From contig VGOW01000032.1 of NCBI GenBank assembly GCA_016875735.1, positions 1 through 41,238 of the forward strand: DNA of 41,238 nt. The letters run 5' to 3'. The DNA is from Chloroflexota bacterium. Its GTDB lineage: Bacteria > Chloroflexota > Anaerolineae > Anaerolineales > VGOW01. Shown here one piece after another: positions 5,003 through 23,417 of this stretch. How positions within the stretch are numbered: position 1 is the first letter of the stretch; each line of letters starts with the position of its first letter. Below the pieces are notes generated by a model. It did not search any database, was not told the origin of the DNA, and worked only from the letters and a program-made list of their open reading frames with translations. A program made the position numbers and the translations under genes.

Positions 5003-5053
5003 AAAAAGAGTCGAGGCCTCAACCGGCGCTGATCGATCCGGCTGAAGCCTCGA
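5003..5053 (-). terminator. Rho-independent terminator after the cytochrome c gene
   Basis: Arms TCGAGGC (5011-5017) and GCCTCGA (5047-5053) pair perfectly, with inner pairing of TCA/TGA and CCGG/CCGG. On the minus strand the stem is followed by CTC and then five T residues (5007-5003). It lies 32 bases after the cytochrome c stop and ends the respiratory operon. Confidence 0.75.
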
Positions 5054-5085: not shown

Positions 5086-5499
5086 TTATTTCGCCAGCGT
5101 GCGAATATAGGCAACGACGTCAGCCAAATCCTGATCGGTGAGGGCCGGGTTGCCGCCGCGCGGGGGCATGTCCACGCCGGTGGTGTTGGCCGAATCGCTG
5201 GCCGGGCGGCCTTTGGTGAGGAACAGAATCATTTCGGCGTCGGGCAAGCCTTTGATGAATTCGCTGGTGGTCATGTCTTTGCCCAGCCCGGCGATGCCCA
5301 CCCCGCCCGGGCCGTGGCAACTGACGCACGTGCCGTCGAACTTCGTTTTTCCGGCGGCGGCGTCGCCCACAAGCGACGCGTATTTTTGAGCCTCGGCGGA
5401 AATCGCGGGGCCCTCGGGCGTGGCCGCTCCGCCGCAGGCGGCAATGAGAGCCGCTCCGACGAGCAGAGCCAGCAATACTGTGAACCGTGTGACTTTCAT
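5086..5499 (-). CDS. Lipoprotein c-type cytochrome (mono-heme)
   Basis: 137 aa. The start at 5499 was chosen for the strong site AGGAGG before the ATG; the longer open frame upstream has none. A signal peptide ends in LIAAC, a lipobox with C22 as the lipidated residue, so the protein is anchored to the outer face of the membrane. A heme-binding CVSCH (C58, C61, H62) and a probable axial Met (M111 in VDMPPRGG) define a class I cytochrome c. It lies 100 bases downstream of the SCO fusion gene and is the last gene of the oxidase cluster before a terminator, so it is the likely electron donor to the CuA site of subunit II. Confidence 0.88.
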   Translation of the reverse strand: MKVTRFTVLLALLVGAALIAACGGAATPEGPAISAEAQKYASLVGDAAAGKTKFDGTCVSCHGPGGVGIAGLGKDMTTSEFIKGLPDAEMILFLTKGRPASDSANTTGVDMPPRGGNPALTDQDLADVVAYIRTLAK

Positions 5500-5540
5500 T
5501 TGAGATAGCCTCCTAAAACTTTTGCGTGTGTGATGAAGTA

Positions 5541-5565
5541 GCGCAATTTTGCGCTCAAATTGCGC
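5541..5565. other. Stem-loop upstream of the cytochrome c gene
   Basis: GCGCAATTT (5541-5549) and AAATTGCGC (5557-5565) form a perfect 9-bp stem with a 7-base loop in the 100-base gap between the SCO fusion gene and the cytochrome c gene. No T-run follows on the minus strand, so it is not a clear terminator. It could be a processing site that sets cytochrome c mRNA levels apart from the rest of the operon. Confidence 0.45.
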
Positions 5566-5600
5566 CGCAGACCATGACGCCAATCATACCAGAAATGGCC

Positions 5601-6812
5601 TCACAATTCGCGGGCCATCTCGCGCACCTTCTCGATGATGGTTTGTGGATCGGCGCGGAGGCCGAACACCGAGCGCAGTTGACTCTGCCCGTCGATCAGC
5701 AGGATCGTCTCGGTGTGGGCGACGCCGTTTTCTGCGCGGGCGACGAATACCGCATATTGAGCCGCCGCCGAATCGATGGATACGGGGTCGCCAGTGAGAA
5801 AGACCCAATTGCCGAAATCGGCCTGCCATTTTTCGCCGAAGGCTTTCAGCACAGCGGGCGTGTCGGTTGCCGGATCGACGGTGATCGAAAGCAGAACAGT
5901 CGAGTCGCGCAAGTTGGAGTCGAGCCCGTTTTGCACGGCGCGGAAAGTGGCGGTGAGCAATGGGCATGAGGTAGTGCACGAGGTATAGATAAAGTTCATC
6001 ACCACAACTTTGCCGCGATAGTTTTGCAGGCTCACTAATCGCCCGTTTTGATCGGTGAGGGTGAATGGCGGAGCCGGCGCGGGCTCGAGATCGACGGCGG
6101 AGTGGCTTGAGTGATCGGCGTGCGACGCCAGTGCGGGAAACAACGGGATGCCGCGAAAGGCAGTGATCAACCCGAGCGCGATCACCAACACACCCGCCGC
6201 GCGCGCCAGCATGGGGCGCAGTGCGCCTTGCCGCGAGGCCGCCGCCCCGCCCCAGGCAACGGCAAGCAGCATCGGCGCGGTGCCCAACCCGAAGGCGAGC
6301 ATGACGAGCAGCGCGGCAGTAAACGAGCCGCTGCCAGCCGCAGTGAGAGCGAACGTGTAAACGAATCCGCAGGGCAGAAATCCGTTGAAGAGGCCGAGAA
6401 AGAACGCGCCATCGAGCGAATCGCGCTGGCGAAATGTTTGGAAGATGGGGCCGAGAAATGGGCCGAGCCACAATCGCGAGGCGATGCGGTTGACGATGTT
6501 TTGGCCCGGCGCGAGCCCGAGCGTTTGCAGTCCGACGACGACGATGAGCGACCCGGCCACCGCCGCGAAGGCGGCTTGCGCCGCGCGCACCACTGCATTC
6601 TCGATCAGCGCCGCGCCCAGCACTCCGGCCACCCCGCCGATGAAAACGTAGGTGAATAATTTTCCGAAGTGATAGGCCGAGAGACGCAATAACGACGACT
6701 GCGTTTGCCCCGGCCTCACCAGCCCCAGCGAGAAGCCGCCGCACATGGCCGCGCAATGGAACGAGCCCATGACGCTGGCCGAGAACACGAGCAGGAGCGC
6801 GGCGGCAGTCAT
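5601..6812 (-). CDS. DsbD2/TauE-like membrane protein fused to a SCO1/SenC domain
   Basis: 403 aa. Residues 1-225 form a six-TM domain of the cytochrome-biogenesis DsbD_2/TauE-SafE type, with GSFHCAAMCGGF (C20, C24) in the first helix and NGFLPCGF (C148). A periplasmic linker with spaced His (H231, H234, H237) leads to a SCO domain (about 245-403) with the Cu-binding C279-TTS-C283 and the ligand H366. SCO proteins deliver Cu to the CuA centre of oxidase subunit II, and DsbD2/TauE proteins accompany Cu ATPases in oxidase assembly, so one chain may combine membrane transfer of reductant or metal with Cu insertion. The ATG overlaps the stop of the cytochrome b fusion by 4 bases (ATGA). The fusion is unusual; the two domains are normally separate genes. 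Confidence 0.87.
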   Translation of the reverse strand: MTAAALLLVFSASVMGSFHCAAMCGGFSLGLVRPGQTQSSLLRLSAYHFGKLFTYVFIGGVAGVLGAALIENAVVRAAQAAFAAVAGSLIVVVGLQTLGLAPGQNIVNRIASRLWLGPFLGPIFQTFRQRDSLDGAFFLGLFNGFLPCGFVYTFALTAAGSGSFTAALLVMLAFGLGTAPMLLAVAWGGAAASRQGALRPMLARAAGVLVIALGLITAFRGIPLFPALASHADHSSHSAVDLEPAPAPPFTLTDQNGRLVSLQNYRGKVVVMNFIYTSCTTSCPLLTATFRAVQNGLDSNLRDSTVLLSITVDPATDTPAVLKAFGEKWQADFGNWVFLTGDPVSIDSAAAQYAVFVARAENGVAHTETILLIDGQSQLRSVFGLRADPQTIIEKVREMAREL

Positions 6813-8932
6813 TTCAACTCGAAGGCGTTGGTTACGCGATTGAAGGTGATGGCGCGAATCTGCCCCGACTCGAAATTCGCCGTTTCGTCGATCGCCACCT
6901 CATAGCCGCCGCCGCTGTCGTCCACACTCAACCGCACCGTGCGCGCGCCGGGCGAAACGAAAAACTTGCCGTAGGCAAACGCCGAACCTTCACGATGAAA
7001 GCCCTGCGGCTCGTACGTTTGGTCGAGCACTACCTGTCCGTCCACTTCCAACTTGAGCCGGGTGGGGAAGCGGCCTTCGGCTTGTTGGGCATTGAGGTAT
7101 TCCACTTGCTGATCGTGCGGCAGGGCGGCCAATTCGGGGCCGGTGAGTTGCTGAGTGTTCTGCCGCCACTCGCCATTGTTGCGCACGCCGAGTTCCAGCA
7201 AACTTTCGGTGGGGGCATAGGGGCGATAGGGCATATCGGTGAAAGCGACTTGAATGGCGAGGGCAGCGGCCAGAATCAATCCGCCGCGAACGAAATGGGG
7301 CGGGCCGATGGCCGGCTTCGCTTTCGCCGGTTGCGGCGTGCCCCCCCCGCTCTTCAGCGCGGAGGTGAATTCGTTGGGCGGCGCAAAGGCCACGTGAATC
7401 GGCGCGCCCATGAAATCGCGTTTGAGGCGCGGGGCGCGTGTGCGCGCCAGCCGCGCTTCCATCCACAAGTTGCCTTCGCGTTGAGCGCAATCTTCACCGG
7501 GGCAGCCCACGATCATCACATCGCTTGCCCCCGCTTCGAGCGATTGGCTGACGACGTTGGGGTGCAGTGCACCCACGCACGGAACGGTGATCGCCTCTCG
7601 CGCTCCGCCCGCCGCTCCGGGTCCGCCGTGCGCCGCGTGCCGCTCGCAAGTGAACACGACTTGCACCGGAGCGCCCGCCGCCGCGTTCGCCGCCCGCACG
7701 CGAGTGAGAATCGAGCGGTAGTAATCGGGGGCGGGCAAATCGGTGAGACTCACCGCCAGCCCATCGCACGATCCTACGCAGAGTCCGCACGACACGCACA
7801 GATTCGGATTCTCCATCGCGATCAATTTGTGCGGTTTGCCGTCGGTGCGCGGCAGCATGGAGATGGCGTTGTAAGGGCAGTCTTCGGCGCATTTGGTGCA
7901 GCCAGTGCAAATATCTTTGTCAATCGTCACTTTGCCCGTAGGCTTGCCTTTGAACAACCACGGGAATGCAGTGATGACTGCGAACAAAAGAATCACCCCG
8001 CCCCAAAAGAAGGCCGGGTTCACGCGCAGGGTGGCCGGAAGATAAAAGAGGAAGAACGGATCGAAAGTCAGTTGGCCGGGCAGTCTGCCGAGATCGGCTT
8101 GCGGTGCGCTTGTGGCCGGGCGAGCCAACGCGGCGGCGGCAAGGAGAATCGAGAGGCCGATCATGTAATAGCGGGCCGGCAAAAACTTGGCCCGGCTGAG
8201 GCGCAGAATGTGAAACCAATAGAACGCGCCGATCACAGCGAACAGCGCGATGTGCGCGAACAGCAGAAGCAAAAAGAACACCCACGTTTGATCGGTGGCT
8301 TCGTTGGTGACAAAGTTGAGGGCGAACGGCACACCCACCGACGGAAACACCATCAATGCGCGGATGACGGTTTCCAGAATCAATTGCGCGCGCTCGTCCC
8401 ACACCAGCCAATAGCCGGTGAGTCCCTCGAACCACATCGCCGCCAGCAACAGCATCCCCGTGAACCATGCCAGCCATCGCGCGCCGCGAAAGCGATCTTG
8501 AAACAGCGTGCGCAGAGCGTGCAGAAGCGTGGCGATCACCGCCGCGCCCGAAGCGTAACGGTGCGCGCCGCGAACGATGCGCCCGATCCACAGCCAGTGC
8601 CCGTCGATGGCGGCCACTGCGCCGAAGGCCACTTTTGTTCCGAGTCCGGGAGCGACGTAAAAGACGGTGAGGTAGAGTCCGGTGACGGCGACGGCAATGA
8701 GCAAAAAGACGGCGACCGTGCCGGTGTGATAAAAGGGATTCAGTTTATCGGCGTGGGGGCCGACGAGGCGATTGATCAGACTCTCGAAGGCCAGCGCGAT
8801 CTTCTCGATGGCCACCAGCGCGGGCCGCCCGGAAATTTTTGGCCGATACGACCACGGCCACCCGGCAACGCCCGCCTTTCCGGCGCCCACTGCCTGCCAC
8901 TCGGCCTCATGCTCATCTTCATCTTCAATCAC
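6809..8932 (-). CDS. Cytochrome b / 2x[4Fe-4S] / MvhD-like / C-terminal domain fusion
   Basis: About 707 aa. The GTG at 8932 is chosen because it follows the P-type ATPase stop (8958); the frame is open to 9058, so the start is uncertain. Order: a four-helix cytochrome b N-terminal domain with both bis-His pairs (H124/H138 and H227/H241, each H-x13-H); two more TM segments (about 255-270 and 308-328); two [4Fe-4S] motifs (C342, C345, C348, C352 and C379, C382, C385, C389); an MvhD/FrhD-like iron-sulfur domain (about 423-500, C429, C452, C477, C482); another TM helix (about 550-566); and a soluble C-terminal domain of about 140 residues, predicted outside. This would connect a cytoplasmic donor or ferredoxin to membrane hemes and quinone. 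It overlaps the SCO fusion gene by ATGA. No single known complex has this whole architecture as far as I can recall. Confidence 0.82.
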   Translation of the reverse strand: MIEDEDEHEAEWQAVGAGKAGVAGWPWSYRPKISGRPALVAIEKIALAFESLINRLVGPHADKLNPFYHTGTVAVFLLIAVAVTGLYLTVFYVAPGLGTKVAFGAVAAIDGHWLWIGRIVRGAHRYASGAAVIATLLHALRTLFQDRFRGARWLAWFTGMLLLAAMWFEGLTGYWLVWDERAQLILETVIRALMVFPSVGVPFALNFVTNEATDQTWVFFLLLLFAHIALFAVIGAFYWFHILRLSRAKFLPARYYMIGLSILLAAAALARPATSAPQADLGRLPGQLTFDPFFLFYLPATLRVNPAFFWGGVILLFAVITAFPWLFKGKPTGKVTIDKDICTGCTKCAEDCPYNAISMLPRTDGKPHKLIAMENPNLCVSCGLCVGSCDGLAVSLTDLPAPDYYRSILTRVRAANAAAGAPVQVVFTCERHAAHGGPGAAGGAREAITVPCVGALHPNVVSQSLEAGASDVMIVGCPGEDCAQREGNLWMEARLARTRAPRLKRDFMGAPIHVAFAPPNEFTSALKSGGGTPQPAKAKPAIGPPHFVRGGLILAAALAIQVAFTDMPYRPYAPTESLLELGVRNNGEWRQNTQQLTGPELAALPHDQQVEYLNAQQAEGRFPTRLKLEVDGQVVLDQTYEPQGFHREGSAFAYGKFFVSPGARTVRLSVDDSGGGYEVAIDETANFESGQIRAITFNRVTNAFELK

Positions 8933-8957
8933 AGCCGGCAGGCAATCCTTATCGGCA

Positions 8958-11066
8958 TCAGCCTGCGGCAGCAAATTCTTCCACGAAGGTTTCTTCAACA
9001 CTGTCCTTGTCCTTCGGCGCGGAACCGCGAGCGAGCCGCAGTGAGTTGCCCACCACAAACAGGTTGCTCAACACCATCGCCAGCGCCGAAATAATGGGGT
9101 GCAAAATTCCAAACAACGCCAGCCCAATGCCCACGGCGTTGTAGAAAAATGCCCACCACAAATTTTGTCGTATCGTTCGATACGTTTCGTGGGCCAGCCT
9201 CGCCGCCCACACCACCTGCCGAAGATCCGAGCCGATGAGACTCACGTCGGCAGTCTCTCGCGTCACATCCACACCGCACCCCAGCGCAATGCCCACATCC
9301 GAACGGGCCATCGCCGGAGCGTCATTCAGCCCGTCGCCCACCATCGCCACCGGGCCCAATCGTGATCGCGCCTCCGCGATCAACCGCTCTTTATCGTCGG
9401 GCAGAAGATTCGAATGGACTCGGATTCCCAACCGGCGGGACACCGCCTCTCCCGCCGAACGATCATCTCCGGTGAGCGCTTCCACCGCGAATCCCAGAGC
9501 CGTCAACTCGCGCACCGTCTCCGGCGCTTCAGGCCGAATCGATTCGACGAAACCCAATAGCCCGCGCGCCACCCCATCCCAACCCACGCACACCACCGTG
9601 CGCCCTTCACCGTGGAGACGCGCCCGCTCGGCAGAAAGAGTCGGGCACAGAGGCCAACCCATCCTCTGCATGAATCGCTCACTGCCCACCGCCACCTTCG
9701 ACGCGCCGCCCACTTGCCCCACAACTCCCAACCCGGGCATCGCCCGAAACTCACTCACCGGGCTGATGACGGCATGATGCGCGCGCGCGTGCGCCACCAC
9801 CGCTCGCCCCAACGGATGCTCCGACGCCGTCTCGAGCGACGCCGCCCAGCCAATAAGCTGCCCGCCATCGATCCCTGCCGCAGGAATTGTATCGCGCAAC
9901 AAGAACGTGCCTTTGGTCAGCGTGCCGGTTTTGTCGAAGAACACGGCTTTCACTCCGGCCAATTTCTCCAACGCCTCTGCGCTTCGGACGAGCACCCCGC
10001 CCTCGGCGGCCCGCCCCATCCCGGCCCAGATCGCAAGGGGTGTGGCCACCCCCAACGCGCACGGGCAGGCAATGAGCAGAACCGCCAGCGCGGCCATCAG
10101 CCCGTGACTCGCGCCGTCGCGCCAACACCAAAACGCGAAAGCCAGCGCCGCGCACAGCACCGTGAGCGGAACGAAAATGGCCGACACGCGATCGGCCAAT
10201 CGTTGAACCGGCGCGCGGCGAGTGAGCGCCTCGCGCAGATGCCGCACGAGGCGAGCCATCGCCCGATCCTCTCCGACTCCGGTGGCGCGAATGATCAGCC
10301 GCCCATCGAGATTCACGGCGCCGGAATACACGCGCTCGCCTGCCTCTTTGAACACCGGCTCGGCCTCGCCGGTAATGGAGGCCTCATCCACACTGCCCGC
10401 CCCGTCGATCACTTCGCCGTCCACCGGGATCGATCCGCCGGGGCGGACGATGACGGTTTCGCCGAGCGCAACGGCGGCGGCGGGCACATCGGTTTCCACG
10501 CCGCCGCGCACCACACAAGCCATATCGGGAGCGCGGGCCAGCAATCGCTCCAGCGCTTCAGAGCCGCGAGCGCGAGCGCGCAGTTCGAGGTAATGCCCGG
10601 CGGTGACGAAAACGAGAATGGTGGTCGCAGTGTCGAAATACACTTCGCCGCCGGTGGCGATGCCATACAACGAGGCCGCATAACCGGAAAGGCTGCCCAG
10701 CGCGATGAGGGTGTCGGTGCTCATCCGCCGCTGGCGCAGGCCGTCCCACGAGGCGCGCAGGATGGGCGGGACGAGAACGAGCATCGTCAGCGTCGAGCCG
10801 AGAAGCATGTTGAGTTTGAAGAGGAGAACGATCGAGGAGGGAATCGTCGGCTCCCCGCCGAAGATGGCCGCGCGCGCCCAATCGGAATATAGAAAGAACG
10901 ACATCATCATCGTGTCCATGCTGAACACGATGCCCAGCGCGAGGCGGGTGAGAAGTTTCCACGCTTCTTCGCCCGGATCCGTTTGATCGAGATCGATGCA
11001 ACAGGAGGAGAACTGCCAAGCGGGGGAAGCCGACTCCGATGACGAGGCGAGGGCGGTGTGCGACAT
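8958..11066 (-). CDS. Heavy-metal (copper) translocating P1B-type ATPase, CopA2/CcoI-like
   Basis: 702 aa from the ATG at 11066; the frame is open to 11120 (GTG), so the start is not certain. Motifs are CPC in the transport helix (334-336), phosphorylated D378 in DKTGT, the HP locus (H417-P418), an actuator loop with TGEAEP, and the GDGLNDAP hinge. No N-terminal HMA metal-binding domain is present; only C22-C23 in SSCC lies ahead of the first helix. The TM8 motif reads MVLSN rather than the MxxSS of most Cu+ pumps. Position between oxidase genes and a SCO fusion fits a CopA2/CcoI role, exporting Cu+ for oxidase assembly rather than detoxification. Confidence 0.9.
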   Translation of the reverse strand: MSHTALASSSESASPAWQFSSCCIDLDQTDPGEEAWKLLTRLALGIVFSMDTMMMSFFLYSDWARAAIFGGEPTIPSSIVLLFKLNMLLGSTLTMLVLVPPILRASWDGLRQRRMSTDTLIALGSLSGYAASLYGIATGGEVYFDTATTILVFVTAGHYLELRARARGSEALERLLARAPDMACVVRGGVETDVPAAAVALGETVIVRPGGSIPVDGEVIDGAGSVDEASITGEAEPVFKEAGERVYSGAVNLDGRLIIRATGVGEDRAMARLVRHLREALTRRAPVQRLADRVSAIFVPLTVLCAALAFAFWCWRDGASHGLMAALAVLLIACPCALGVATPLAIWAGMGRAAEGGVLVRSAEALEKLAGVKAVFFDKTGTLTKGTFLLRDTIPAAGIDGGQLIGWAASLETASEHPLGRAVVAHARAHHAVISPVSEFRAMPGLGVVGQVGGASKVAVGSERFMQRMGWPLCPTLSAERARLHGEGRTVVCVGWDGVARGLLGFVESIRPEAPETVRELTALGFAVEALTGDDRSAGEAVSRRLGIRVHSNLLPDDKERLIAEARSRLGPVAMVGDGLNDAPAMARSDVGIALGCGVDVTRETADVSLIGSDLRQVVWAARLAHETYRTIRQNLWWAFFYNAVGIGLALFGILHPIISALAMVLSNLFVVGNSLRLARGSAPKDKDSVEETFVEEFAAAG

Positions 11067-11141
11067 GAGCGGGCGACAGGATGAAAAGGTGAAGGGTGAA
11101 CTCCGCACCCTCTCATCCACTCATCCTGTCACCGGGTCAAT

Positions 11142-12593
11142 TCAATCCCCGGTCGAGCCGACGAACGCCGGCTTTTGGATCTCAACCGTCCGCTTGCTCT
11201 CGGCTCGGCGCAGAAGCGACCCAGCCATGATGCCCACGAACATGGCGCCGCCGAGCGCGGCGATGGCCGCGCCGCCGCCCATGACGATCATCGGTTTGAG
11301 CCAGGCCGCGCCGGTCACCGCCGCATCGTAAGTTTTGCGCGGCGCGCCGAGATCGCCCGCGCCCAGCAAACCGGAGACGAGCCCCATGAGGCCAAGGGCG
11401 AACAAATACGGTTGCGCGATTGCGGCTCTGCGCCACACGACCGGGCGGTTGAGTTTCGAGAGCATGTGATAGGCCAAGCCCATGAAGGCCAGCGTGACTC
11501 CGCCGACGACAACGCTGTGATAGTGCGCGGGCGTGCGCAGGGTGCCCTGCCGCGCCGCCGGATGAATGGTGAGGCCGAAGGCAAACAGAATGGCCGAGAA
11601 CACGAAGGTCATCACTCGCGGTTCGCCCCACGGCATTCGTTTGAGCCATGCGCGCACATCCTCTCCGCGCGTTCGCCACACCCACACCAACAGCAGGGGC
11701 CCGAGGAACATCACCGGCACACTCAGAGCGCTGTCGAGGGCAATGCCCCACGCTTTGCGTTGCGGCACGGTGATCGGATCGTAGAGAAAGTATGGAATGG
11801 GCGAAGCCAGCGGGGAGAGGGCGAAGATGGCGAGCATGGCTTTGGCAAATTTGGCGTTGAGGCGCGACTCGCCGAGAAAGAGTCCGACGAGCGCGTACCA
11901 CACCACTACCATTGTCGCCACGCTCACGTATTGAAGCGAGTGCCCCATGCCCCAAAACATGGATTGATAGTATTGCGCCGGTTCGCGGCCGTTCGCGCCG
12001 ATGCCCAAGCGCAGAGCGGCCACGCCCAGCGACACCACCGCGACGAGCGCGGCAACGGCGGCGCAGGCCATGCCGAAGGCGATGAGGGAGAGCGGCCCGG
12101 CGGCCCGATCGCGCCGGGCAACGCCGACGAGATAGGTGGCCGCTGTGATTCCGACGCCGATCAAAAAGGTGACGAAGCCGACGAAAAAGAGGGGCGTGTC
12201 GAGAAGCGGCACATAATCGGTGGTGACGGCTTCCCCTTGGAAGAGGGCGATGGGGATCGAGATAATGATCGTTCCGATCAGCGACGTGATCAGCCCGGCC
12301 CAACTTCCAATTCGATTCAGCGCGATCCCGGATTGGGCCGCCACCCACACCCAAACGGTGGAAATGAAAGCGAGCAACCAAATGGTGAGCGCAAAAGTGA
12401 CGTGGGCGATCAGAATGACTTGAAAGGCTCTGGCCGAGGGCAAGATGCGCACGCCGGGGGTGCGGGTCATGGCTACTAAAAAGGCCAAGGTTCCGGCGAT
12501 GCCCGCCGCGCCGATGGCATAGAGCAACCAGCTATAGAGCAGTTTGCGTTGTTGTGGAGAGAAGTCGAGCGAGGTTTTCATGAGCGCCACCAT
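11142..12593 (-). CDS. Heme-copper oxidase subunit I-like protein lacking the CuB His-His pair
   Basis: 483 aa, about 12 membrane segments. It aligns without difficulty to the neighbouring subunit I: H64 for the low-spin heme in helix II, the helix VI motif FWGMGHSLQYV (H218, Y222), and AHYH in helix X (H357, H359). The helix VII block that carries His-His in true subunits I (before the DP motif) reads SPIPYFLYDP, with P267-Y268 in place of the pair. Heme ligands are kept while CuB cannot be built normally. Possible roles are a heme-only electron-transfer partner, a quinol-binding subunit or a sensor. Start may instead be the ATG at 12581; neither has a good ribosome site. A stutter palindrome separates it from the 42-aa gene. 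Confidence 0.85.
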   Translation of the reverse strand: MVALMKTSLDFSPQQRKLLYSWLLYAIGAAGIAGTLAFLVAMTRTPGVRILPSARAFQVILIAHVTFALTIWLLAFISTVWVWVAAQSGIALNRIGSWAGLITSLIGTIIISIPIALFQGEAVTTDYVPLLDTPLFFVGFVTFLIGVGITAATYLVGVARRDRAAGPLSLIAFGMACAAVAALVAVVSLGVAALRLGIGANGREPAQYYQSMFWGMGHSLQYVSVATMVVVWYALVGLFLGESRLNAKFAKAMLAIFALSPLASPIPYFLYDPITVPQRKAWGIALDSALSVPVMFLGPLLLVWVWRTRGEDVRAWLKRMPWGEPRVMTFVFSAILFAFGLTIHPAARQGTLRTPAHYHSVVVGGVTLAFMGLAYHMLSKLNRPVVWRRAAIAQPYLFALGLMGLVSGLLGAGDLGAPRKTYDAAVTGAAWLKPMIVMGGGAAIAALGGAMFVGIMAGSLLRRAESKRTVEIQKPAFVGSTGD

Positions 12594-12660
12594 TGGCAGA
12601 TGGCCGACAGCCGATAGCGAATGAGCGCACTATCGGCTATGAGCCATCCGCCATTTGCTA
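12594..12660. repeat. Intergenic stutter palindrome
   Basis: AGCCGATAG (12609-12617) pairs with CTATCGGCT (12630-12638), and the outer parts repeat variants of GATGGC and GCCATC. The same style of self-similar palindrome recurs at 32448-32522 with the ATAGCGGATAG motif. It fills most of the space between two oxidase genes. Confidence 0.6.
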
Positions 12661-12789
12661 TCAGCGCATTCCCCACGCCTGCGAGAGCGTGACCCAATGG
12701 CCGAAGTAAAGGAAGCCCAGCCAGATGAGCAGAAGGAAGGTGAGCACCACTGTGCCGGGAGCCTCCATGCCGCCGTGTTTCTTGTCCAT
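12661..12789 (-). CDS. Small single-TM protein, probable oxidase accessory subunit (42 aa)
   Basis: The reading frame MDKKHGGMEAPG followed by an 18-residue hydrophobic helix and HWVTLSQAWGMR encodes a 42-aa protein: short cytoplasmic head, one TM helix, short tail. It lies between the two subunit I-type genes on the same strand, and a moderate ribosome site (AGAGAC) is upstream. B-type (ba3) oxidases carry a single-TM subunit IIa of similar size, so it could be an equivalent that supports one of the two large subunits. No conserved motif proves function. Confidence 0.6.
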   Translation of the reverse strand: MDKKHGGMEAPGTVVLTFLLLIWLGFLYFGHWVTLSQAWGMR

Positions 12790-12798
12790 AGTCTCTTC

Positions 12799-12884
12799 TC
12801 CAAAAGAGGATGGTTAGACGGTTCGGTGGTTTGGCCTGCCCAACAACCTAGCCACCCAACAACCCAACCACCTAACAACCTAAT
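12799..12884. repeat. Intergenic stutter palindrome rich in CCAACAACC
   Basis: Short, diverging copies of CCAACAACC/CCAACCACC (12839-12883) face GGTTCGGTGGTTTGG-like copies (12812-12833), giving a long imperfect hairpin between subunit I and the 42-aa gene. It codes for nothing evident and may act as an mRNA stabiliser or attenuator. Confidence 0.5.
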
Positions 12885-14450
12885 TCATGCTTCCATCGGA
12901 TCCAACGCCCGCGCTTCGCGCTTGGGCATGAACAGCGAGCCGACGCAGACGACGACATACATGATGCCGCCAGTGACGGCGATGAGCGCGCCGATGCCGG
13001 TGAGCGTGAGCATCAAGTTCGTCAGCGAGGGCAGCTGCACGGGAATGGCGGCGTTGGTGAACGTGGTGTCCCAATGGCGGCGCGGCGCGCCGAGCACACC
13101 AGCCATCGTCATCGAAATGCTCACGAGGATCATGCCGATGCCATACACCCAGGGCTGCCAGCGCACCAGCGGTTTAGCGAACAGTGGCCGGCGGAAGATG
13201 AGCGGGATGACGTAATAGGTGAAGCCCATGAAGGCCAAGGTGGTGCCGCCCACGACGGTGGCATGGAAGTGTCCGGTGATGCGCCAGGTGTTGTGAGCCA
13301 GCAGGTTGATCTGCCCTGCGCCGATCACCACGCCGGTGGGGCCGCCGATGAACCCGAAGATGAACAGCGAGAACATCAACGCTGAAAAGCCGGGCTCCTT
13401 CCATGGTGCGTTCAACAACCAGCCGAACAAGCCTTTGTTGTAGCCCTTCTCGCGCATGGCAACCTCAATCGCCGCCGGAATGGAGAAGGCGTGAATGAGA
13501 CTGCCCAGCACCGCCAGATACATTGCATACGAGGTGTTGAAGAACTTGTTCGCCGAGCCGAGTCCGGGATCGACCAGCAAGTGATGCATCGAGCCGAGAT
13601 TGATGAAGAGAATGTAGAGGAAGAACGCGAACCGCGAAAGTTTCTCGTTCACCGGCTTCGCGCCCACAGTGAGGGTGGCCAGCGAATACCAAATGGCGAT
13701 CATCGCCGAGAGGTTGATTTGCTGAGCCGAGTGGCCGAAGCCCCAGAAGGTGACTCGATACGCGCCGGGATCGACCTCGCCAATGCCGAGCCGCCACAAC
13801 AGCGTGGGGATGAGCGCCACCGCGCCGCTGGCCAGCGTGAACAGCGCGATGATGGCCGCCGTGAGCAGGCCGAACACCGCCAGCGGCATCGAGCCCTCGT
13901 AGCGGCGCTCCACCTTCGCCATTACCAGCGAGGCGAGGAAAATGCAGCACACCAGTATTGCGCCGACAGCGAAGAGAATGTAGCCAACGTAGAACAACGG
14001 GTCGGCGGCCAGCGGCGGGTAGGCGCTAAACATCACATCAGCCTTGCCCATCAGCACCATCACATTCACCATGAGTGAGCCGATAAGCATGAGGGCAAAG
14101 GCCACCCACGCCAGCCGCACCCCCACCAGCCGCGCATTCAACAGCGCGGTGACGCCGAAATACAAACCGGCGGCCTCGAAGAACACAATCCAGAACACGA
14201 GCATGTTGAGGCCATGCCCGGTGAGCAGCCGGTAAAACCACGGCGCGCTGAGGAGGTGCACGTCGGGCCAGCGGGTGAGGCCGATGAGCAGGGCATAGAG
14301 GCCGCCCACCGTGAGCGCCACAATCGCCGTCACCGCGTTCCAAATGATCAGCCGCTCGGCGGCCAGATCAACTTTGAGCGTGGTCACCGGGCACACGCGA
14401 TATTGTGACTTGGTGCCCGTAAAAATGTTGGGAGCAGAAATCGCAGCCAT
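12885..14450 (-). CDS. Heme-copper oxidase subunit I, B-type, active-site Tyr replaced by Gln
   Basis: 521 aa, about 12-13 TM helices; the start at 14450 has a good site (AAGGAGAAG). Ligands present: H79 (low-spin heme), H240 (CuB, helix VI), H289-H290 (CuB, helix VII), H394 (high-spin heme) and H396 (low-spin heme). Helix VII (MHHLLVDPG) and helix X (HNTWRITGHFH) resemble ba3-type (B-family) enzymes. In ba3 the helix VI motif is HPIVY with a cross-linked Tyr at H+4; here it is HSAQQ, so that position is Q244. There is also no Tyr six residues before the His pair, the cbb3 position. Loss of this Tyr is a mark of NO reductase lineages, so NO reduction is a real alternative to O2 reduction. Confidence 0.9.
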   Translation of the reverse strand: MAAISAPNIFTGTKSQYRVCPVTTLKVDLAAERLIIWNAVTAIVALTVGGLYALLIGLTRWPDVHLLSAPWFYRLLTGHGLNMLVFWIVFFEAAGLYFGVTALLNARLVGVRLAWVAFALMLIGSLMVNVMVLMGKADVMFSAYPPLAADPLFYVGYILFAVGAILVCCIFLASLVMAKVERRYEGSMPLAVFGLLTAAIIALFTLASGAVALIPTLLWRLGIGEVDPGAYRVTFWGFGHSAQQINLSAMIAIWYSLATLTVGAKPVNEKLSRFAFFLYILFINLGSMHHLLVDPGLGSANKFFNTSYAMYLAVLGSLIHAFSIPAAIEVAMREKGYNKGLFGWLLNAPWKEPGFSALMFSLFIFGFIGGPTGVVIGAGQINLLAHNTWRITGHFHATVVGGTTLAFMGFTYYVIPLIFRRPLFAKPLVRWQPWVYGIGMILVSISMTMAGVLGAPRRHWDTTFTNAAIPVQLPSLTNLMLTLTGIGALIAVTGGIMYVVVCVGSLFMPKREARALDPMEA

Positions 14451-14461
14451 AGATCTTCTCC

Positions 14462-14986
14462 TTACTTCACTATGATCTTGCCAGTCATCAAGTGATGGCC
14501 GATACTGCAAAACTCGTTGCAGATCAGGCCGTACTCACCCGTTCGGTTCGGCGTCACCGTCACGATGAAATCGTAGCCGGGGAAGATTTGCAGGTTCAGG
14601 TTGATGGGCTGAACTGAGAAGCCATGCTGCACGTCGAGTGATGAAAGGTGCAGGGTGTACGTCTTTCCGACTTCGAGCTCAAGAATCGGCGTCCACTGCC
14701 ACTGCTTGGCAATGAGATAAGCATCGCCTCCAGCGGGGACATGCACGATGGGGATTCCGGCTTCCTCTCCGACTTTGTTGGCCTGCACGAAAGCGTCGGT
14801 GAGCGTTTGGAACTGCGCGGGCGTGATGCGCATGGTTTTCGTGGGCAGGTTCTGCGCGCCGAGGAAATACCAGCCGATGAGCATGAAGAACATGAAGAAG
14901 CACCACACGGCCGAGACCGTCACCCACAGACGTTCTTCGCGGCCAAGCGGCTTCCACCACACACGTTCGGGGCTAAAGATTGCCAT
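14462..14986 (-). CDS. Cytochrome c oxidase subunit II (CuA), short B-type
   Basis: 174 aa: one N-terminal TM helix (about 22-43) and a periplasmic cupredoxin domain. The full CuA set is visible: H121 in DVQHGF, then C156, E158, C160, H164 and M167 in CNEFCSIGHHLM. Length and single-helix topology match subunit II of ba3-type oxidases. It receives electrons from cytochrome c and passes them to subunit I, whose gene follows 11 bases downstream. An intact CuA implies that the complex takes electrons from a c-type cytochrome or similar donor, such as the lipoprotein cytochrome at 5086-5499. Confidence 0.93.
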   Translation of the reverse strand: MAIFSPERVWWKPLGREERLWVTVSAVWCFFMFFMLIGWYFLGAQNLPTKTMRITPAQFQTLTDAFVQANKVGEEAGIPIVHVPAGGDAYLIAKQWQWTPILELEVGKTYTLHLSSLDVQHGFSVQPINLNLQIFPGYDFIVTVTPNRTGEYGLICNEFCSIGHHLMTGKIIVK

Positions 14987-15004
14987 TGGACTCTCCTTTC
15001 GGGC

Positions 15005-15187
15005 TTACGGGTGATAGACGGGGATAACCGAGGTGGACCACAGCCCCCACACAATGTAGAGCAGTGTGGGAACAACCAACCCCAGCATGAGGAGCAAGAA
15101 AACATCGTCGAAGATGACTTGCCCAATGGGGACACGCTCCTCAGGCGGCGCCGCCTGATCTTGCGAGGACTTCGATTGATCAGCCAT
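15005..15187 (-). CDS. Small single-TM protein heading the oxidase operon (60 aa)
   Basis: The start at 15187 follows AAGGAGAACGCATCT, a strong ribosome site; upstream in-frame codons run through the operator region and are unlikely to be translated. A hydrophilic head of about 25 residues (MADQSKSSQDQAAPPEER) precedes one TM helix (VFLLLMLGLVVPTLLYIVWGL region) and a short tail ending PVYHP. Size, topology and place ahead of subunit II suggest an accessory subunit of the IIa type. Confidence 0.65.
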   Translation of the reverse strand: MADQSKSSQDQAAPPEERVPIGQVIFDDVFLLLMLGLVVPTLLYIVWGLWSTSVIPVYHP

Positions 15188-15207
15188 AGATGCGTTCTCC
15201 TTATGGA

Positions 15208-15229
15208 AAGTATGATTTGCATCATACTT
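15208..15229. promoter_or_regulatory. FNR-like operator palindrome, proximal site
   Basis: A perfect 9-4-9 palindrome: AAGTATGAT, spacer TTGC, then ATCATACTT. The core ATGAT-N4-ATCAT has the 5-4-5 layout of FNR/DNR/NNR sites (TTGAT-N4-ATCAA). It lies 21 bases upstream of the first oxidase-operon ATG. On the minus strand it contains TATGAT, a possible -10, so binding here could repress. Confidence 0.7.
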
Positions 15230-15246
15230 GCGTACCAAAATGCAAA

Positions 15247-15268
15247 GAGCGCCCTCGGCGGGGCGCTC
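15247..15268. terminator. Strong GC hairpin between the two operator sites
   Basis: GAGCGCCC (15247-15254) and GGGCGCTC (15261-15268) form a perfect 8-bp stem with loop TCGGCG. On the minus strand it is followed by TTTGCATTTT, so it may act as a terminator for transcription arriving from the regulator side, insulating the oxidase promoter. A structural role in the divergent promoter is also possible. Confidence 0.5.
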
Positions 15269-15269
15269 C

Positions 15270-15285
15270 TATGATGCAAATCATA
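15270..15285. promoter_or_regulatory. FNR-like operator palindrome, distal site
   Basis: TATGAT, spacer GCAA, then ATCATA: the same ATGAT-N4-ATCAT core as the proximal site and its exact 16-base reverse complement. The centres of the two sites are 59 bases apart. If TATGAT in the proximal site is the -10 element, this one falls near -63, close to the class I activation position used by Crp/Fnr proteins. Confidence 0.65.
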
Positions 15286-15380
15286 CACGTCGTGTCCGAG
15301 TCGGGCTACACTACCTCACACGTTCGCAATTTTTTCTGTTGAAACATACAACACGGGGAAGGCAAGGAGCGCCTGACGGG

Positions 15381-15647
15381 ATGACTCAGGAGAATCCTGC
15401 TCTTTCGCGGCTCAACGAATTCCGCCGCTGGCTCTACAATTGGATCACGAAAACCCTTCGACCCCCACAGACTCCGGCTGAGCCGCCGCGAGTCGAGGGA
15501 CCCTATCCCGACTACGTCACCTGCCCTCGCTGCGGCGAATTAGAAGTGGAAGTGTGGTCACACGAAAAGGCCGGGCGCTGTCACCGCTGTGGGCAGACCT
15601 TCGAGTATCCTCTGCCGCGCCCCGAGCAATCCAAGCCGACCCATTGA
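15381..15647 (+). CDS. Small zinc-ribbon protein
   Basis: 88 aa on the plus strand, divergent from the oxidase operon and convergent with the Crp/Fnr gene. The ATG at 15381 follows AAGGAGCGCC, a good ribosome site; the longer open frame upstream crosses the operator region. Two CxxC pairs (C48, C51 and C67, C70), separated by 15 residues, form a rubredoxin/zinc-ribbon-like knuckle; the rest is charged and proline-rich. No known function; location suggests co-regulation with the oxidase genes by the shared operator region. Confidence 0.65.
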   Translation: MTQENPALSRLNEFRRWLYNWITKTLRPPQTPAEPPRVEGPYPDYVTCPRCGELEVEVWSHEKAGRCHRCGQTFEYPLPRPEQSKPTH

Positions 15648-15656
15648 AACCGCCCG

Positions 15657-16415
15657 TCACTCGGCGACAGGGGGCGGGCTCAGTTTGGGGTTTCTGCCTT
15701 CGGCCTCTCCCCTGCTGATCTTTCCCAGCATCTCGCGATTCAGAATCACCACATAGCCGCCGGGCAGAGTCTTCGCCCACCCGGATTTGCTAAACTTGGA
15801 CATCACACGAATGGCCGTCTCGGTGGTGGTGTCGGCCAGTTCGGCAATTTCCTGCCGTGAGAGGCTCACGCCGATCATCCAACCAGAGTCGGTTTCCACC
15901 CCGCACTTGCTGGCAATCTTGATCAGGATGTGGGCGATGCGCCGCTCCACCCGTTCGCTGATCATCATCCGCATCCCGATCACTCCGCGCAAACGCTCGC
16001 CCAACATCTCGATCACTCGCACACTCACGGCAGGGTAATCGAGCAGCACCCGCTTGTATTCTTCCACCGACAGGCTGAGAGTCACCGCGTCGGACAGCGC
16101 GCGCGCGGTGGCGGGTTGGCGGCTCATAAGCACGGTGGCGCTGCCGAACACTTCGCCGGGCGGGATCACTTCGAGTACCGTCTCTTTGCCGCCCTCGGCG
16201 TATTTGACGATCTTCACCTGCCCTTCGCTCACGATCCAAAATCGCTCTGCCGCATCGCCCTCATGGAAGATGTGCGCGTCGTGCTGAAACCTGTCCACGC
16301 GAAAGCGCGGCGCGAGGGCGAGCAGTTCCTCGCGCCGCAGATCGGCGAGCAGCGGCACTTGCGACAACACAGCGACGCTGGCCGGAGAATGATTGGCCCG
16401 TTGGAGGGATGTCAC
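15657..16415 (-). CDS. Crp/Fnr-family transcriptional regulator
   Basis: 252 aa. An N-terminal cyclic-nucleotide-binding-type beta-roll (about 15-125) contains HEGDAAERFWIVSEGQVKI and PPGEVFG; a long dimer helix follows, then a winged helix-turn-helix (about 180-225) with SLSRQEIAELADTTTETAIR. There is only one Cys (C171), so no FNR-type iron-sulfur cluster is possible; a heme- or ligand-sensing Dnr/CooA/Crp-like mode is open. The recognition helix reads E199-T-A-I-R203: Glu and Arg as in FNR, but Ile where FNR has the Ser that helps read the first T of TTGAT. The nearby palindromes have ATGAT instead, which fits this protein as their binder, by inference. Confidence 0.87.
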   Translation of the reverse strand: MTSLQRANHSPASVAVLSQVPLLADLRREELLALAPRFRVDRFQHDAHIFHEGDAAERFWIVSEGQVKIVKYAEGGKETVLEVIPPGEVFGSATVLMSRQPATARALSDAVTLSLSVEEYKRVLLDYPAVSVRVIEMLGERLRGVIGMRMMISERVERRIAHILIKIASKCGVETDSGWMIGVSLSRQEIAELADTTTETAIRVMSKFSKSGWAKTLPGGYVVILNREMLGKISRGEAEGRNPKLSPPPVAE

Positions 16416-16455
16416 CGAGAGTAAAGCCTCTCTCCGAAAAGATTGTTCATTGACA

Positions 16456-16485
16456 GATCACGCCGAATTGTCGTTCGGCGTGATC
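16456..16485 (-). terminator. Stem-loop at the end of the ETF/thioesterase operon
   Basis: A perfect 12-bp stem, GATCACGCCGAA (16456-16467) with TTCGGCGTGATC (16474-16485), loop TTGTCG. It spans the last codons and stop of the thioesterase gene. The T-run downstream on the minus strand is weak, so termination is probable rather than certain. Confidence 0.55.
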
Positions 16486-16901
16486 CCTTCATAGTCTGCG
16501 ACAGCGCGGCGAAACCGCTCCGGAATCTCCCGCTCGGCCCACGTGCCGGCTTCTGCCGTGACGGCGACAACGTGGCCCGTGGCCACCTGCCGCCCATCGT
16601 TGGCCGCGCGGATGTCGAACTCGTACCGGATACTGCGCCGGCCCATGTGCCCGATGCGCGTGTGCACCTTCAGCACTTCGGGCCACTTCACCGACGACTT
16701 GTAGTGGCAGTGCGATTCAGCATACAACAGATCGACGCCATCGGCCAACATGTCTGCATAATCGTAGCCGATGGCTTCCATGTACTCGGTCGCCCCCACA
16801 TCGAAGTAAAACAGATATTGGCCGAAGTTGACGTGCCCCTGCAAATCGGTTTCATTGAAACGAACTTTGATCGGCGCAAAGAACTTGAACGGCTCGCTCA
16901 T
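16458..16901 (-). CDS. Acyl-CoA thioesterase, 4HBT/YbgC hot-dog family
   Basis: 147 aa. The start at 16901 gives a 4-base ATGA overlap with the etfA stop. Hot-dog fold signature near the N-terminus: RFNETDLQGHVNFGQYLFYFDVG, with the Asp-x-x-Gly-His-x-Asn active-site pattern, followed by the beta-strand YKSSVKWPEVLKVHTRIGHMG. The family hydrolyses acyl-CoA thioesters (4-hydroxybenzoyl-CoA or short/branched acyl-CoA). Tight coupling to the ETF genes suggests it acts on a product or inhibitor of the flavoenzyme pathway; the substrate is unknown. Confidence 0.85.
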   Translation of the reverse strand: MSEPFKFFAPIKVRFNETDLQGHVNFGQYLFYFDVGATEYMEAIGYDYADMLADGVDLLYAESHCHYKSSVKWPEVLKVHTRIGHMGRRSIRYEFDIRAANDGRQVATGHVVAVTAEAGTWAEREIPERFRRAVADYEGITPNDNSA

Positions 16902-17854
16902 GCCATCGCTTTCTTCACTTCGGCGCACAGCGCCGGGATCACTTCATGCAAGTCGCCGATGATGGCGTAATCGGCGGCGGCCACGATGGGCGCGTCGGCG
17001 TCGGTGTTGATGGCCAGAATGTGCTTCGATCCTCTCGCGCCGATCAGGTGTTGAGTGGCCCCGCTCACTCCGCAGGCAATGTACAGATCGGGCGCGATGC
17101 GTGTGCCGGTTTGACCCACCTGCTCGGCGTGAGGCCGCCAACCCAAACTGGTGACGGCGCGCGAACAGCCCACCGCCCCGCCCATCAACTCGGCCAACTC
17201 TTCGAGCGGCTTGAATCCTTCGGCGCTGCCCACTCCACGCCCGCCGCCCACCACCACTCGCGCTTCGGCCAACGATATTTTGCCCGCGCCTGCTTCCACC
17301 CGCCCCGACACGCGAACGCGAAATACTTTGTCGTCGAGAGTCGGCGTCACCGTGTTGATCGTCGGCGATCTGGCCGGAGACTCGACGGCCTCCACTGCCA
17401 GCGGCGCGACGGTGAGCAAGTGAGTCGATCCATTCAGCCGCGCCTCCTCCAGCAAACTTCCGCCCCATCGCGCGCGGGTGACGACGCACGGGTTGCCAAG
17501 TTTGATTTCGATGCAATTCGCCGCCATCGGCAACCTCGTTTGGGCGGCCACGTGCGCCATCACTTCGTTGCCGCGATCGGTGCCCGAAGCCAACACCGCT
17601 TCCGGCTTCAGCGACTCGATCAATTCCACAACACACTGCGCCCATGCTTCCGGCGCATATTCAGCCAATCGTTCATGCTGAACAACGTGAACGGTGGCCG
17701 CCCCGAACGCCGCGGCGCGGTCGGCCAATGGCCGCGCCGCTTCGCCGATGAGCACGGCGTGAAGCGGCAAACCGAGTCCGCGCCCCAACGTGAGCATCTC
17801 CAACGATGATTCGTTCAGTTTCCCCCTGTCGTGTTCAATCAATGCGATGATCAT
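16898..17854 (-). CDS. etfA: Electron transfer flavoprotein, alpha subunit
   Basis: 318 aa. The N-terminal half has the alpha/beta fold that pairs with EtfB; the C-terminal half (about 195-318) binds FAD, with RAVTSLGWRPHAEQVGQTGTRI, CGVSGATQHLIGARGSKHILAINTDADAPI and ADYAIIGDLHEVIP, all classical EtfA blocks. It takes electrons from a flavin dehydrogenase and passes them to ETF:quinone oxidoreductase. It overlaps etfB by ATGA and lies two genes downstream of the dimethylglycine dehydrogenase-like gene, its probable electron source. No ETF:QO gene is in the window. Confidence 0.93.
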   Translation of the reverse strand: MIIALIEHDRGKLNESSLEMLTLGRGLGLPLHAVLIGEAARPLADRAAAFGAATVHVVQHERLAEYAPEAWAQCVVELIESLKPEAVLASGTDRGNEVMAHVAAQTRLPMAANCIEIKLGNPCVVTRARWGGSLLEEARLNGSTHLLTVAPLAVEAVESPARSPTINTVTPTLDDKVFRVRVSGRVEAGAGKISLAEARVVVGGGRGVGSAEGFKPLEELAELMGGAVGCSRAVTSLGWRPHAEQVGQTGTRIAPDLYIACGVSGATQHLIGARGSKHILAINTDADAPIVAAADYAIIGDLHEVIPALCAEVKKAMA

Positions 17855-18612
17855 TTCTGAAACAACCCCAGCTTCTGAAAGACTTCGACGGCTTTGGGCG
17901 CAGCCCCCGGCCCATTGCCCAAAATCTCAACCTGATGCTCTTGCTCCTTCGGAATCTTGAGCCGCGCCTTTTCCATTTGATTACCATTCCACTGCGGCTT
18001 CGCTCGCGCAATATCTTTCTTCTTGGCTTTGAGCCGCCCCTGAAACGACGGGTAGCGCGGCAGGTTGATTCCTTCTTTCACCGTGACCACTGCTGGCAAC
18101 GGAATCTCGAAGATGTCCCAGCCGCCGGAGGCTTCGCGTTTGGCAACCGCCCCGCCGCCTTTGATCTCCAGCGATTTGATTCCGGTGACGCACGGCAAGC
18201 CGAGCGCGTGCGCCACCCGAATGCCCACTTGATAATCGCCGGTGTCTGCCGCTTCGTTGCCGAACAACAACAGATCGAAATTCATGCCGTCGGCGCGAAC
18301 GGCTTCGACGATGGCCGCCGCCGTCGAACCGGCGTCCCACTCGCGGCCATCGGTCTCCAACAGAATCGCGCGGTCGATCCCCATCGCCATCGCATCGCGC
18401 AATTGTTCCGTCGAAACTTCCGCGCCGAGAGTCAGCACGGCGCTGCTGCCGCCGTTGGCCTCGATCAGCCTCACGGCTTCTTCCACCGCGCATTCTTCGT
18501 GCGGGCTGACAGTGAAGCCGAGATGCCGCGTGTCAATCTCTTGCTCGTCCGCCGTGAGCGACACCTTGCCGCCCGTGGCCGGAATGCGTTTGATGCAAAC
18601 GAGGATGTTCAT
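17851..18612 (-). CDS. etfB: Electron transfer flavoprotein, beta subunit
   Basis: 253 aa. Begins MNILVCIKRIPATGG and shows the beta-subunit signature blocks SPHEECAVEEAVRL, GNEAADTGDYQVGIRVAHALGLP and the C-terminal arm. It forms the ETF dimer with EtfA and normally binds AMP. It sits 49 bases after the flavoenzyme stop, with a short palindromic repeat in between. Same-strand order DMGDH-etfB-etfA-thioesterase points to one operon. Confidence 0.93.
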   Translation of the reverse strand: MNILVCIKRIPATGGKVSLTADEQEIDTRHLGFTVSPHEECAVEEAVRLIEANGGSSAVLTLGAEVSTEQLRDAMAMGIDRAILLETDGREWDAGSTAAAIVEAVRADGMNFDLLLFGNEAADTGDYQVGIRVAHALGLPCVTGIKSLEIKGGGAVAKREASGGWDIFEIPLPAVVTVKEGINLPRYPSFQGRLKAKKKDIARAKPQWNGNQMEKARLKIPKEQEHQVEILGNGPGAAPKAVEVFQKLGLFQK

Positions 18613-18626
18613 AGGAAAATCGTAAA

Positions 18627-18658
18627 TGGTAAGTGGTAATTGCCATTCACCACTTACT
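18627..18658. repeat. GTAAGTGGT intergenic palindrome
   Basis: GTAAGTGGT (18629-18637) pairs perfectly with ACCACTTAC (18649-18657). The same core word appears at 26804-26838 and in one orientation at 25573. It may attenuate transcription between the flavoenzyme gene and etfB. Confidence 0.65.
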
Positions 18659-18661
18659 GCA

Positions 18662-21169: not shown

Positions 21170-21216
21170 GAAAGTTGCTCCTTTTTTTGTAGGTGCTCGT
21201 GGATGAGCTGGGGTCG

Positions 21217-21240
21217 GTGATATATCACATATATATCACA
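21217..21240. promoter_or_regulatory. Operator-like palindromes over the promoter of the flavoenzyme operon
   Basis: GTGATATATCAC (21217-21228) is a perfect 12-base palindrome. An overlapping one has arms TGATATAT and ATATATCA separated by 5 bases (21218-21238). They cover the putative -10 element, so a repressor bound here would block transcription; GntR-type operators are often of this kind. No regulator gene is adjacent. Confidence 0.65.
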
Positions 21241-21257
21241 AATTCTCACCCTGTAAA
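21230..21257 (-). promoter_or_regulatory. Putative sigma70-type promoter of the DMGDH-ETF operon
   Basis: On the minus strand TTTACA (21257-21252) and TATATA (21235-21230) are 16 bases apart, a good housekeeping promoter. The transcript would have a leader of about 55 bases before the ATG at 21169. The 21170-21299 gap holds this promoter, the operator and a small hairpin (21268-21282), with no coding sequence. Confidence 0.6.
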
Positions 21258-21299
21258 CCCCTGTTTTCAGAGAAACACTCTGGGCAAATAGCGGTACGA

Positions 21300-22952: not shown

Positions 22953-22964
22953 GGGGAAATCTAT

Positions 22965-23035
22965 CCACGAAGAACACGAAGGAGCACGAAGAATTTAATG
23001 GGAAAACCTTTGTGTGTCTTCGTGTCCTTCGTGGA
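22965..23035. repeat. CACGAAGG-type palindromic repeat downstream of the GxxExxY gene
   Basis: CCACGAAGAACACGAAG (22965-22981) faces CTTCGTGTCCTTCGTGG (23018-23034) with one mismatch. The right arm, extended by one base (23018-23035), is also an exact 18-bp direct repeat of 23435-23452 on the other side of the GxxExxY gene. Confidence 0.75.
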
Positions 23036-23413: not shown

Positions 23414-23417
23414 GCGT

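Follow-up and report, generated by a model that had tools for sequence, protein, structure and literature searches.

The contig VGOW01000032.1 of a Chloroflexota bacterium (order Anaerolineales, assembly GCA_016875735.1), whose 41,238 nucleotides form the window analysed here, contains nine minus-strand genes in one compact run (15187 to 5086) for a heme-copper enzyme, its copper-loading proteins and a cytochrome b that is fused to iron-sulfur domains and a FlpD (MvhD) domain. We see an even chance that this cluster encodes an eNOR-type nitric oxide (NO) reductase, together with genes that load it with copper and an electron input module of its own, a Rieske-less bc-like cytochrome b. In many relatives, such a cytochrome with a cytoplasmic arm is encoded beside O2 or NO enzymes, hinting at a wiring of the respiratory chain that has not been described.

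The eNOR nitric oxide reductase is known from Hemp and Gennis 2008. In the window the enzyme would consist of subunit II (14462-14986, 174 amino acids, PF00116), which has a complete CuA site with the full motif CxxxCxxxHxxM and the upstream histidine, and the catalytic subunit I (12885-14450), with the CuA-type subunit II encoded directly upstream of subunit I, as in the known eNOR. Subunit I belongs to the B family, its best solved relatives being ba3 oxidases, and has three CuB histidines. In the window protein and its orthologues HH, HFH and the heme histidines are kept and a glutamine (GHSAQQ) occupies the position of the cross-linked tyrosine. Glutamine together with HH is also present in homologues from Thermomicrobium roseum, Thermus thermophilus and Defluviimonas, with HFK aligned to HFH in T. 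thermophilus. Glutamine at the tyrosine position is a mark of eNOR and asparagine one of sNOR (Table A4, PMC8756737); sNOR was set aside because the position holds glutamine and not asparagine. In the subunit I tree, the glutamine clade is well supported, includes the T. roseum, T. thermophilus and Defluviimonas plasmid proteins and lies apart from the HPLVY (ba3-type) oxygen reductases. These features suggest that subunits I and II form a B-family nitric oxide reductase of the eNOR type, with NO as the probable substrate. The NOR-like CuA enzyme of the original prediction, which had been made from the letters of the window, can thus be named, as a B-family enzyme of the eNOR type.

Two small peptides accompany these subunits. 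The single-helix peptide of 60 amino acids (15005-15187) precedes subunit II in most eNOR-type clusters compared and is probably a IIa-like subunit, judged by its position and by analogy to the B-type oxidases (PMC3128077). The second peptide, with 42 amino acids (MDKKHGGMEAPGTVVL..., 12661-12789), resembles the last subunit I helix in Thermus, Thermomicrobium and other Chloroflexota. Since a similar sequence ends subunit I in T. thermophilus and T. roseum, the last helix is encoded apart here, and the peptide was dropped as a candidate for a new subunit. Eight or nine same-strand genes had been expected and nine are present in one run, but the second single-helix peptide counted among them is the detached C-terminal helix of subunit I.

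The gene neighbourhoods provide a strong link to NO, as clusters of this kind can be found together with nitrite reductase genes. The eNOR of Ardenticatena maritima is encoded in an operon with NirK (PMC4653789). In G006, a genome of another family of the order, a NirK gene split over two frames separates the cytochrome b gene from that for SCO, and in the genome G026 NirK is encoded directly upstream of subunit II. NirK was present in five of the ten genomes with the enzyme compared to 8 of 51 (Fisher p 0.03), a weak enrichment. The host genome carries NosZ. It also encodes an A-type and another, cbb3-like, subunit I; thus the enzyme described here is one of several terminal enzymes. A T. thermophilus plasmid (NZ_LR027520.1, L059) carries a glutamine-type pair of subunits I and II (14444-16668) beside NirS, a multicopper oxidase and ScdA_N. 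This pair, annotated only as cbb3-type oxidase, is likely an unrecognised NO reductase.

The remaining part of the run encodes a second subunit I homologue (11142-12593), a P1B-type Cu-transporting ATPase, by its context of the oxidase-assembly type (8958-11120), the cytochrome b fusion (6809 to about 9001, with a GTG start at 9001 chosen by comparison with G006), a DsbD_2-SCO1/SenC fusion for CuA loading (5601-6812) and a lipoprotein cytochrome c of 137 amino acids as candidate CuA donor (5086-5499). Intergenic distances along the run are 18, 11, 95, 67 and 21-75 bases, followed by two overlaps and about 101 bases, and Pfam backs every larger assignment. All genes that had been named beforehand, namely the CuA subunit II, two subunit I homologues, Cu ATPase, cytochrome b-FeS-MvhD protein, DsbD2-SCO fusion and lipoprotein cytochrome c, are thus present on the minus strand, and the Cu-loading set (P1B Cu ATPase and DsbD_2-SCO fusion) is part of the run.

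The same gene order was sought in other genomes and is kept: G006 has the full set in the order peptide-II-I-peptide-paralogue-ATPase-cytochrome b-(NirK)-SCO, the genomes G001 and G004 contain the first part of it up to their contig ends, and in five other genomes the variant order peptide-II-I-SCO-ATPase-cytochrome b was found. Because this order is kept in other genomes, the cluster is not a product of chance. The association of the fusion with terminal enzymes was followed in 80 loci encoding the cytochrome b proteins most similar to that of the window. CuA-oxidase genes are located within 8 kb of the fusion gene in 70 of the 80 loci and within 1 kb in 54, and most of the ten unlinked loci end at a contig break. 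The link of the fusion to heme-copper enzymes thus reaches far beyond the host genome, and the original prediction, which was staked on a conserved gene order and on fusion and oxidase genes occurring together, holds in both respects. The fusion protein of the window groups with those that partner oxygen reductases and not with the fusions of most other eNOR clusters, so an exchange of the module between enzymes for NO and for O2 seems to have taken place.

The architecture of the fusion protein is cytochrome b, two [4Fe-4S] motifs, FlpD, a transmembrane helix and a beta-domain predicted to be periplasmic, as derived from Pfam, alignment and a structural model. Pfam alone reports an N-terminal b6 domain, the two [4Fe-4S] motifs and FlpD. 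In an hhalign comparison with the bc cytochrome b of the same genome, helices A-F including the ef loop were aligned (probability 98%), and since this profile alignment continues through helix F, the reading as a plain cytochrome b6 N-domain was dropped. The AlphaFold model (pLDDT 88, pTM 0.88) matches bc cytochrome b chains with Z values of 18-22 over about 260 residues, the list of fold matches being taken up by the cytochrome b part; several of these matches reach the helix after the Fe-S module. This Fer4-FlpD module (7349-7930) is inserted between helix F and the next helix, at the position of the fg loop. By homology it would lie in the cytoplasm, whereas a periplasmic location is predicted for the C-terminal domain. 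Of the 82 cytochrome b proteins of the fetched loci, 40 have a CxxCH motif close to their C-terminus.

Conservation of the redox centres was followed in an alignment of 100 relatives. The four heme histidines are complete in 99 (one sequence is truncated), as are the eight Fer4 cysteines. The motif PEWY itself is absent from the ef loop of the fusion; in its place stands xDxx[YF]L, with the aspartate in 99 of the 100 sequences, and this Qo-type loop could form a quinol-type pocket on the periplasmic side. The four FlpD cysteines, counted by alignment columns, are intact in 89 relatives, and the window protein has them as well. All 11 losses belong to one clade, in which all four cysteines are gone each time, the heme and [4Fe-4S] ligands stay and the heme-copper and Cu-ATPase neighbours are kept. 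Since the four cysteines were lost together, FlpD redox activity is predicted to be dispensable in that clade. The loci L034-L037, L046-L050 and L052-L056 provide a natural FlpD-dead series.

From these data the following electron path can be proposed. Subunit I, with a low-spin heme, a high-spin heme, CuB and the glutamine, would reduce NO to N2O and would receive electrons from the small lipoprotein cytochrome c via CuA of subunit II. The fusion would place two b hemes across the membrane. Its quinol-type pocket would be at the periplasmic side, with the invariant aspartate where PEWY stands in other cytochromes b; two [4Fe-4S] clusters and FlpD, inserted after helix F, would form an arm in the cytoplasm, and the C-terminal domain would lie in the periplasm, where in many relatives it would itself carry cytochrome c. 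Electrons from a ferredoxin or a Hdr-like flavoprotein would enter this arm and pass via the b hemes to the quinone or cytochrome c level, and from there via CuA to NO. The second subunit I homologue would carry heme and join subunit I as a partner without catalytic function. The proposed entry route can be likened to cyclic electron flow, in which ferredoxin presumably feeds the cytochrome b6f complex. On the possible donor side, the window holds two 2-oxoacid:ferredoxin oxidoreductase sets and a ferredoxin, and the host genome a Hdr-MetFV cluster. A locus with MetF-MetV-Hdr-like genes (L152, G000:C17) encodes HdrA-like proteins of 1577 and 1066 residues, which are unusually long.

The MvhD domain had originally been taken to suggest a direct route from a low-potential cytoplasmic donor to the terminal acceptor. 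The pairing of the fusion with CuA enzymes is real, but the loss of the FlpD cysteines in the 11-member clade weakens this claim. Since the protein is of the bc type through helix F and has a Qo-like loop, membrane quinol must be considered besides a low-potential cytoplasmic donor. What gene order, residues, homology and co-occurrence establish is a two-heme chain across the membrane, an Fe-S arm as strictly conserved as the hemes, a quinol-type loop and a periplasmic cytochrome c that is fused to the protein or encoded next to it, all beside genes for CuA enzymes. That the arm exchanges electrons with cytoplasmic iron-sulfur carriers is inferred, as are the direction of this exchange, the formation of one complex, NO as the substrate and the role of the second subunit I homologue. 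With moderate confidence we propose a widespread module that has not been described. In it, a bc-type cytochrome b that has no Rieske partner but a cytoplasmic ferredoxin/FlpD arm and a cytochrome c in the periplasm would couple low-potential carriers (as donor, or as acceptor by bifurcation) directly to B-family O2 or NO reductases, in some lineages with a copper-free partner of subunit I.

Several observations weigh against an electron input module dedicated to NO reduction. The fusion pairs more often with ordinary ba3-type (HPLVY) oxygen reductases than with NO reductases, and the clusters of T. roseum and T. thermophilus contain no gene for it. Neither NirK nor NirS was found in the host genome, a draft that is 97.8% complete, and the subunit I tree contains no biochemically characterised eNOR. 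As to the electron path, nothing in the sequence sets the direction of flow, and flow from the cytoplasm to the periplasm would by itself spend membrane potential. The cluster lacks HdrA, the flavoprotein partner, as well as HdrBC and a hydrogenase. The FlpD cysteines could be lost in one clade, and the host already owns a true bc complex.

It might also be possible, albeit unlikely, that the fusion is a second quinol:cytochrome c reductase for B-family enzymes, in which the arm has a role in structure, assembly or redox sensing and takes no part in the catalytic electron flow. The bc-type fold with its Qo-like loop, the steady link with CuA oxidases and the dispensable FlpD centre agree with such a role; however, the PEWY motif is absent, and eight Fer4 cysteines that are as strictly conserved (99 of 100) as the heme ligands are hard to explain without electron transfer. 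Similarly unlikely in our view is a quinol bifurcation, in which the arm is the exit and not the entry: menaquinol would be oxidised at the periplasmic pocket, one electron would travel via cytochrome c and CuA to NO (or O2), while the other would cross both b hemes and reach the Fe-S/FlpD arm, so that a low-potential reductant would be formed in the cytoplasm. The Qo-type loop with its invariant aspartate, the cytochrome c on the periplasmic side and the FlpD and Fer4 domains at the cytoplasmic end of this two-heme chain fit the scheme. A Rieske protein is however missing among the operon genes (that of the true bc complex is located elsewhere in the genome), the low-potential branch has to work against the membrane potential, and one clade has lost the FlpD centre. 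Over a structural arm, the dull alternative, and bifurcation, the more exotic one, we favour electron entry through the arm. A reading of subunit I as a divergent oxygen reductase, and of the entire cluster as a module for O2 respiration, is improbable, since despite the B-family relationship, the ba3 oxygen reductases as nearest solved structures and the usual partnership of the fusion with HPLVY oxygen reductases, the cross-link tyrosine is a glutamine across the clade and NirK or NirS genes are found in the neighbourhoods (PMC4653789, PMC8756737).

The second subunit I homologue had been called degenerate, and this is borne out: two of the three CuB histidines are lost and the heme ligands are kept. 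The protein retains the low-spin and high-spin heme histidines (HYH and the histidine of helix TM2 among the conserved features), the first CuB histidine and the tyrosine (GHSLQY), and has PY in place of the two adjacent CuB histidines HH; across all paralogues this position reads PY, LY, AY or SY. Its structural model (pLDDT 79) has the fold of a B-family subunit I and is most similar to ba3 oxidases, with a TM-score of about 0.8. Paralogues are encoded in G001, G004, G006, G026, a further Chloroflexi MAG (metagenome-assembled genome) and a Rokubacteria MAG, each directly after the catalytic subunit I, and they form one clade of their own in a tree whose deepest rows have long branches. A contig search with a single paralogue sequence gave no match; the alignment of the cytochrome b protein as query did. 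Most likely, the paralogue is a heme-carrying, copper-less and non-catalytic partner of subunit I. Because the nearest solved relative of subunit I, 7deg, is from a dimeric enzyme, a heterodimer of subunit I and the paralogue is plausible. G026 also encodes a subunit I of a third type, in which GHTLQY is combined with a full set of CuB histidines (L032, G026:C79, 12222-13883, minus strand); it adjoins two NirK genes and a CuB-less paralogue and branches with the paralogues, not with the eNOR clade.

The components of the cluster resemble several known systems. MvhD domains are also found in Qmo. With MvhD/FlpD of the Hdr-hydrogenase complexes the window protein shares a four-cysteine FlpD fused or next to [4Fe-4S] domains, but here FlpD is fused into a membrane cytochrome b. 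The cytochrome b subunits of bc1, b6f and bcc complexes have the same four-histidine two-heme core, helices A-F, ef-loop region and a cytochrome c on the periplasmic side; in contrast, the window cluster has no Rieske gene, and its cytochrome b has xDxxYL for PEWY, Fer4-FlpD after helix F and another C-terminal domain. The Sulfolobales fox cluster has two subunit I genes. Its gene content is comparable, as genes for a terminal oxidase, a cytochrome b and other redox proteins are clustered, but it belongs to archaeal iron oxidation (PMC8280799). The eNOR of A. maritima (PMC4653789; PMC8756737) has a B-family-related subunit I with glutamine for tyrosine, a CuA subunit II immediately upstream and, in some Chloroflexota, NirK in the operon, whereas the window cluster adds the CuB-less paralogue, the separately encoded last helix and the cytochrome b-Fe-S-FlpD fusion, descriptions of which did not turn up in the literature searched. 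Closest is RME88945.1 (cytochrome b6/DMSOR-beta-like/FlpD; appendix of PMC8756737), which apparently has the same architecture as the relatives of the window protein but appears there just as a set of domains that occur together, in a study devoted to NirS, with neither oxidase link nor mechanism. Thus, eNOR, bc cytochrome b and FlpD are each known and, as far as the literature searched goes (the eNOR work of Murali et al. 2024 lies outside this scope), their combination is described nowhere apart from this entry. The statement that no complex of such make-up had been described stands for the combination and has to be qualified for the cytochrome b6/FlpD architecture.

Upstream of the cluster, the perfect palindrome GTATGATTTGCATCATAC (GTATGAT-N4-ATCATAC, 15210-15227) with a Crp/Fnr-type TGAT-N4-ATCA core and a second copy with one mismatch found by the palindrome scan (CTATGATGCAAATCATAC, 15269-15286) resemble operators. 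A Crp/Fnr-family regulator is encoded just upstream (15657-16415, minus strand), and G006 likewise has a Crp/Fnr gene some 2.5 kb upstream of its cluster. With this gene adjacent, the palindrome core looks like a putative Crp/Fnr site. A divergent, operator-bearing region had been proposed; the palindromes are real, but the Crp/Fnr gene is located on the same strand as the cluster, and the sole diverging frame is a small zinc-ribbon ORF (about 15381-15647, plus strand). With at most one mismatch, the palindrome occurs three times in the genome, two of the copies being those ahead of the eNOR cluster. The third (L157:2956-2973; G000:C2:16455-16472) is located about 40 bases upstream of a small histidine-rich ORF, which is followed by genes for a SCO1-like protein, a double PCuAC-like copper chaperone and a cytochrome c (named by sequence reading). 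The three copies would fit a regulon shared by the enzyme and the genes for assembly of its CuA site. In relatives, the palindrome was not found ahead of the cluster. Between the two palindromes, a strong hairpin followed by a T-rich stretch on the minus strand (15245-15270) is the best terminator-like site of the region and may be the end of the Crp/Fnr transcript or an attenuator. At the 3´ end of the run, where a terminator had been placed at 5003-5053, a 16-nt inverted repeat is present (5011-5026/5038-5053, 88%), but the terminator scan reported no T-tailed terminator there. Further upstream, positions 16898-25523 encode ETF alpha/beta, a dimethylglycine/sarcosine-dehydrogenase-like (DAO-GCV_T) protein and two hydantoinase subunits, a gene set for C1/amine catabolism by which ETF and folate would be supplied.

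Since the target residues for mutation are already known, a test of the hypothesis would cost little. With the CuB-less paralogue, nature offers a heme-only variant of a heme-copper subunit, which opens the role of CuB and the pairing of subunit I to direct tests. Should current flow through the Fe-S arm, many Chloroflexota and some Actinomycetota and Rokubacteria would own a new entry (or bifurcation) point of respiration, which would join ferredoxin-level carriers to terminal oxidases or NO reductases outside the textbook schemes. This would bear on O2 and NO respiration and on N2O production by fermentative-looking Chloroflexota.

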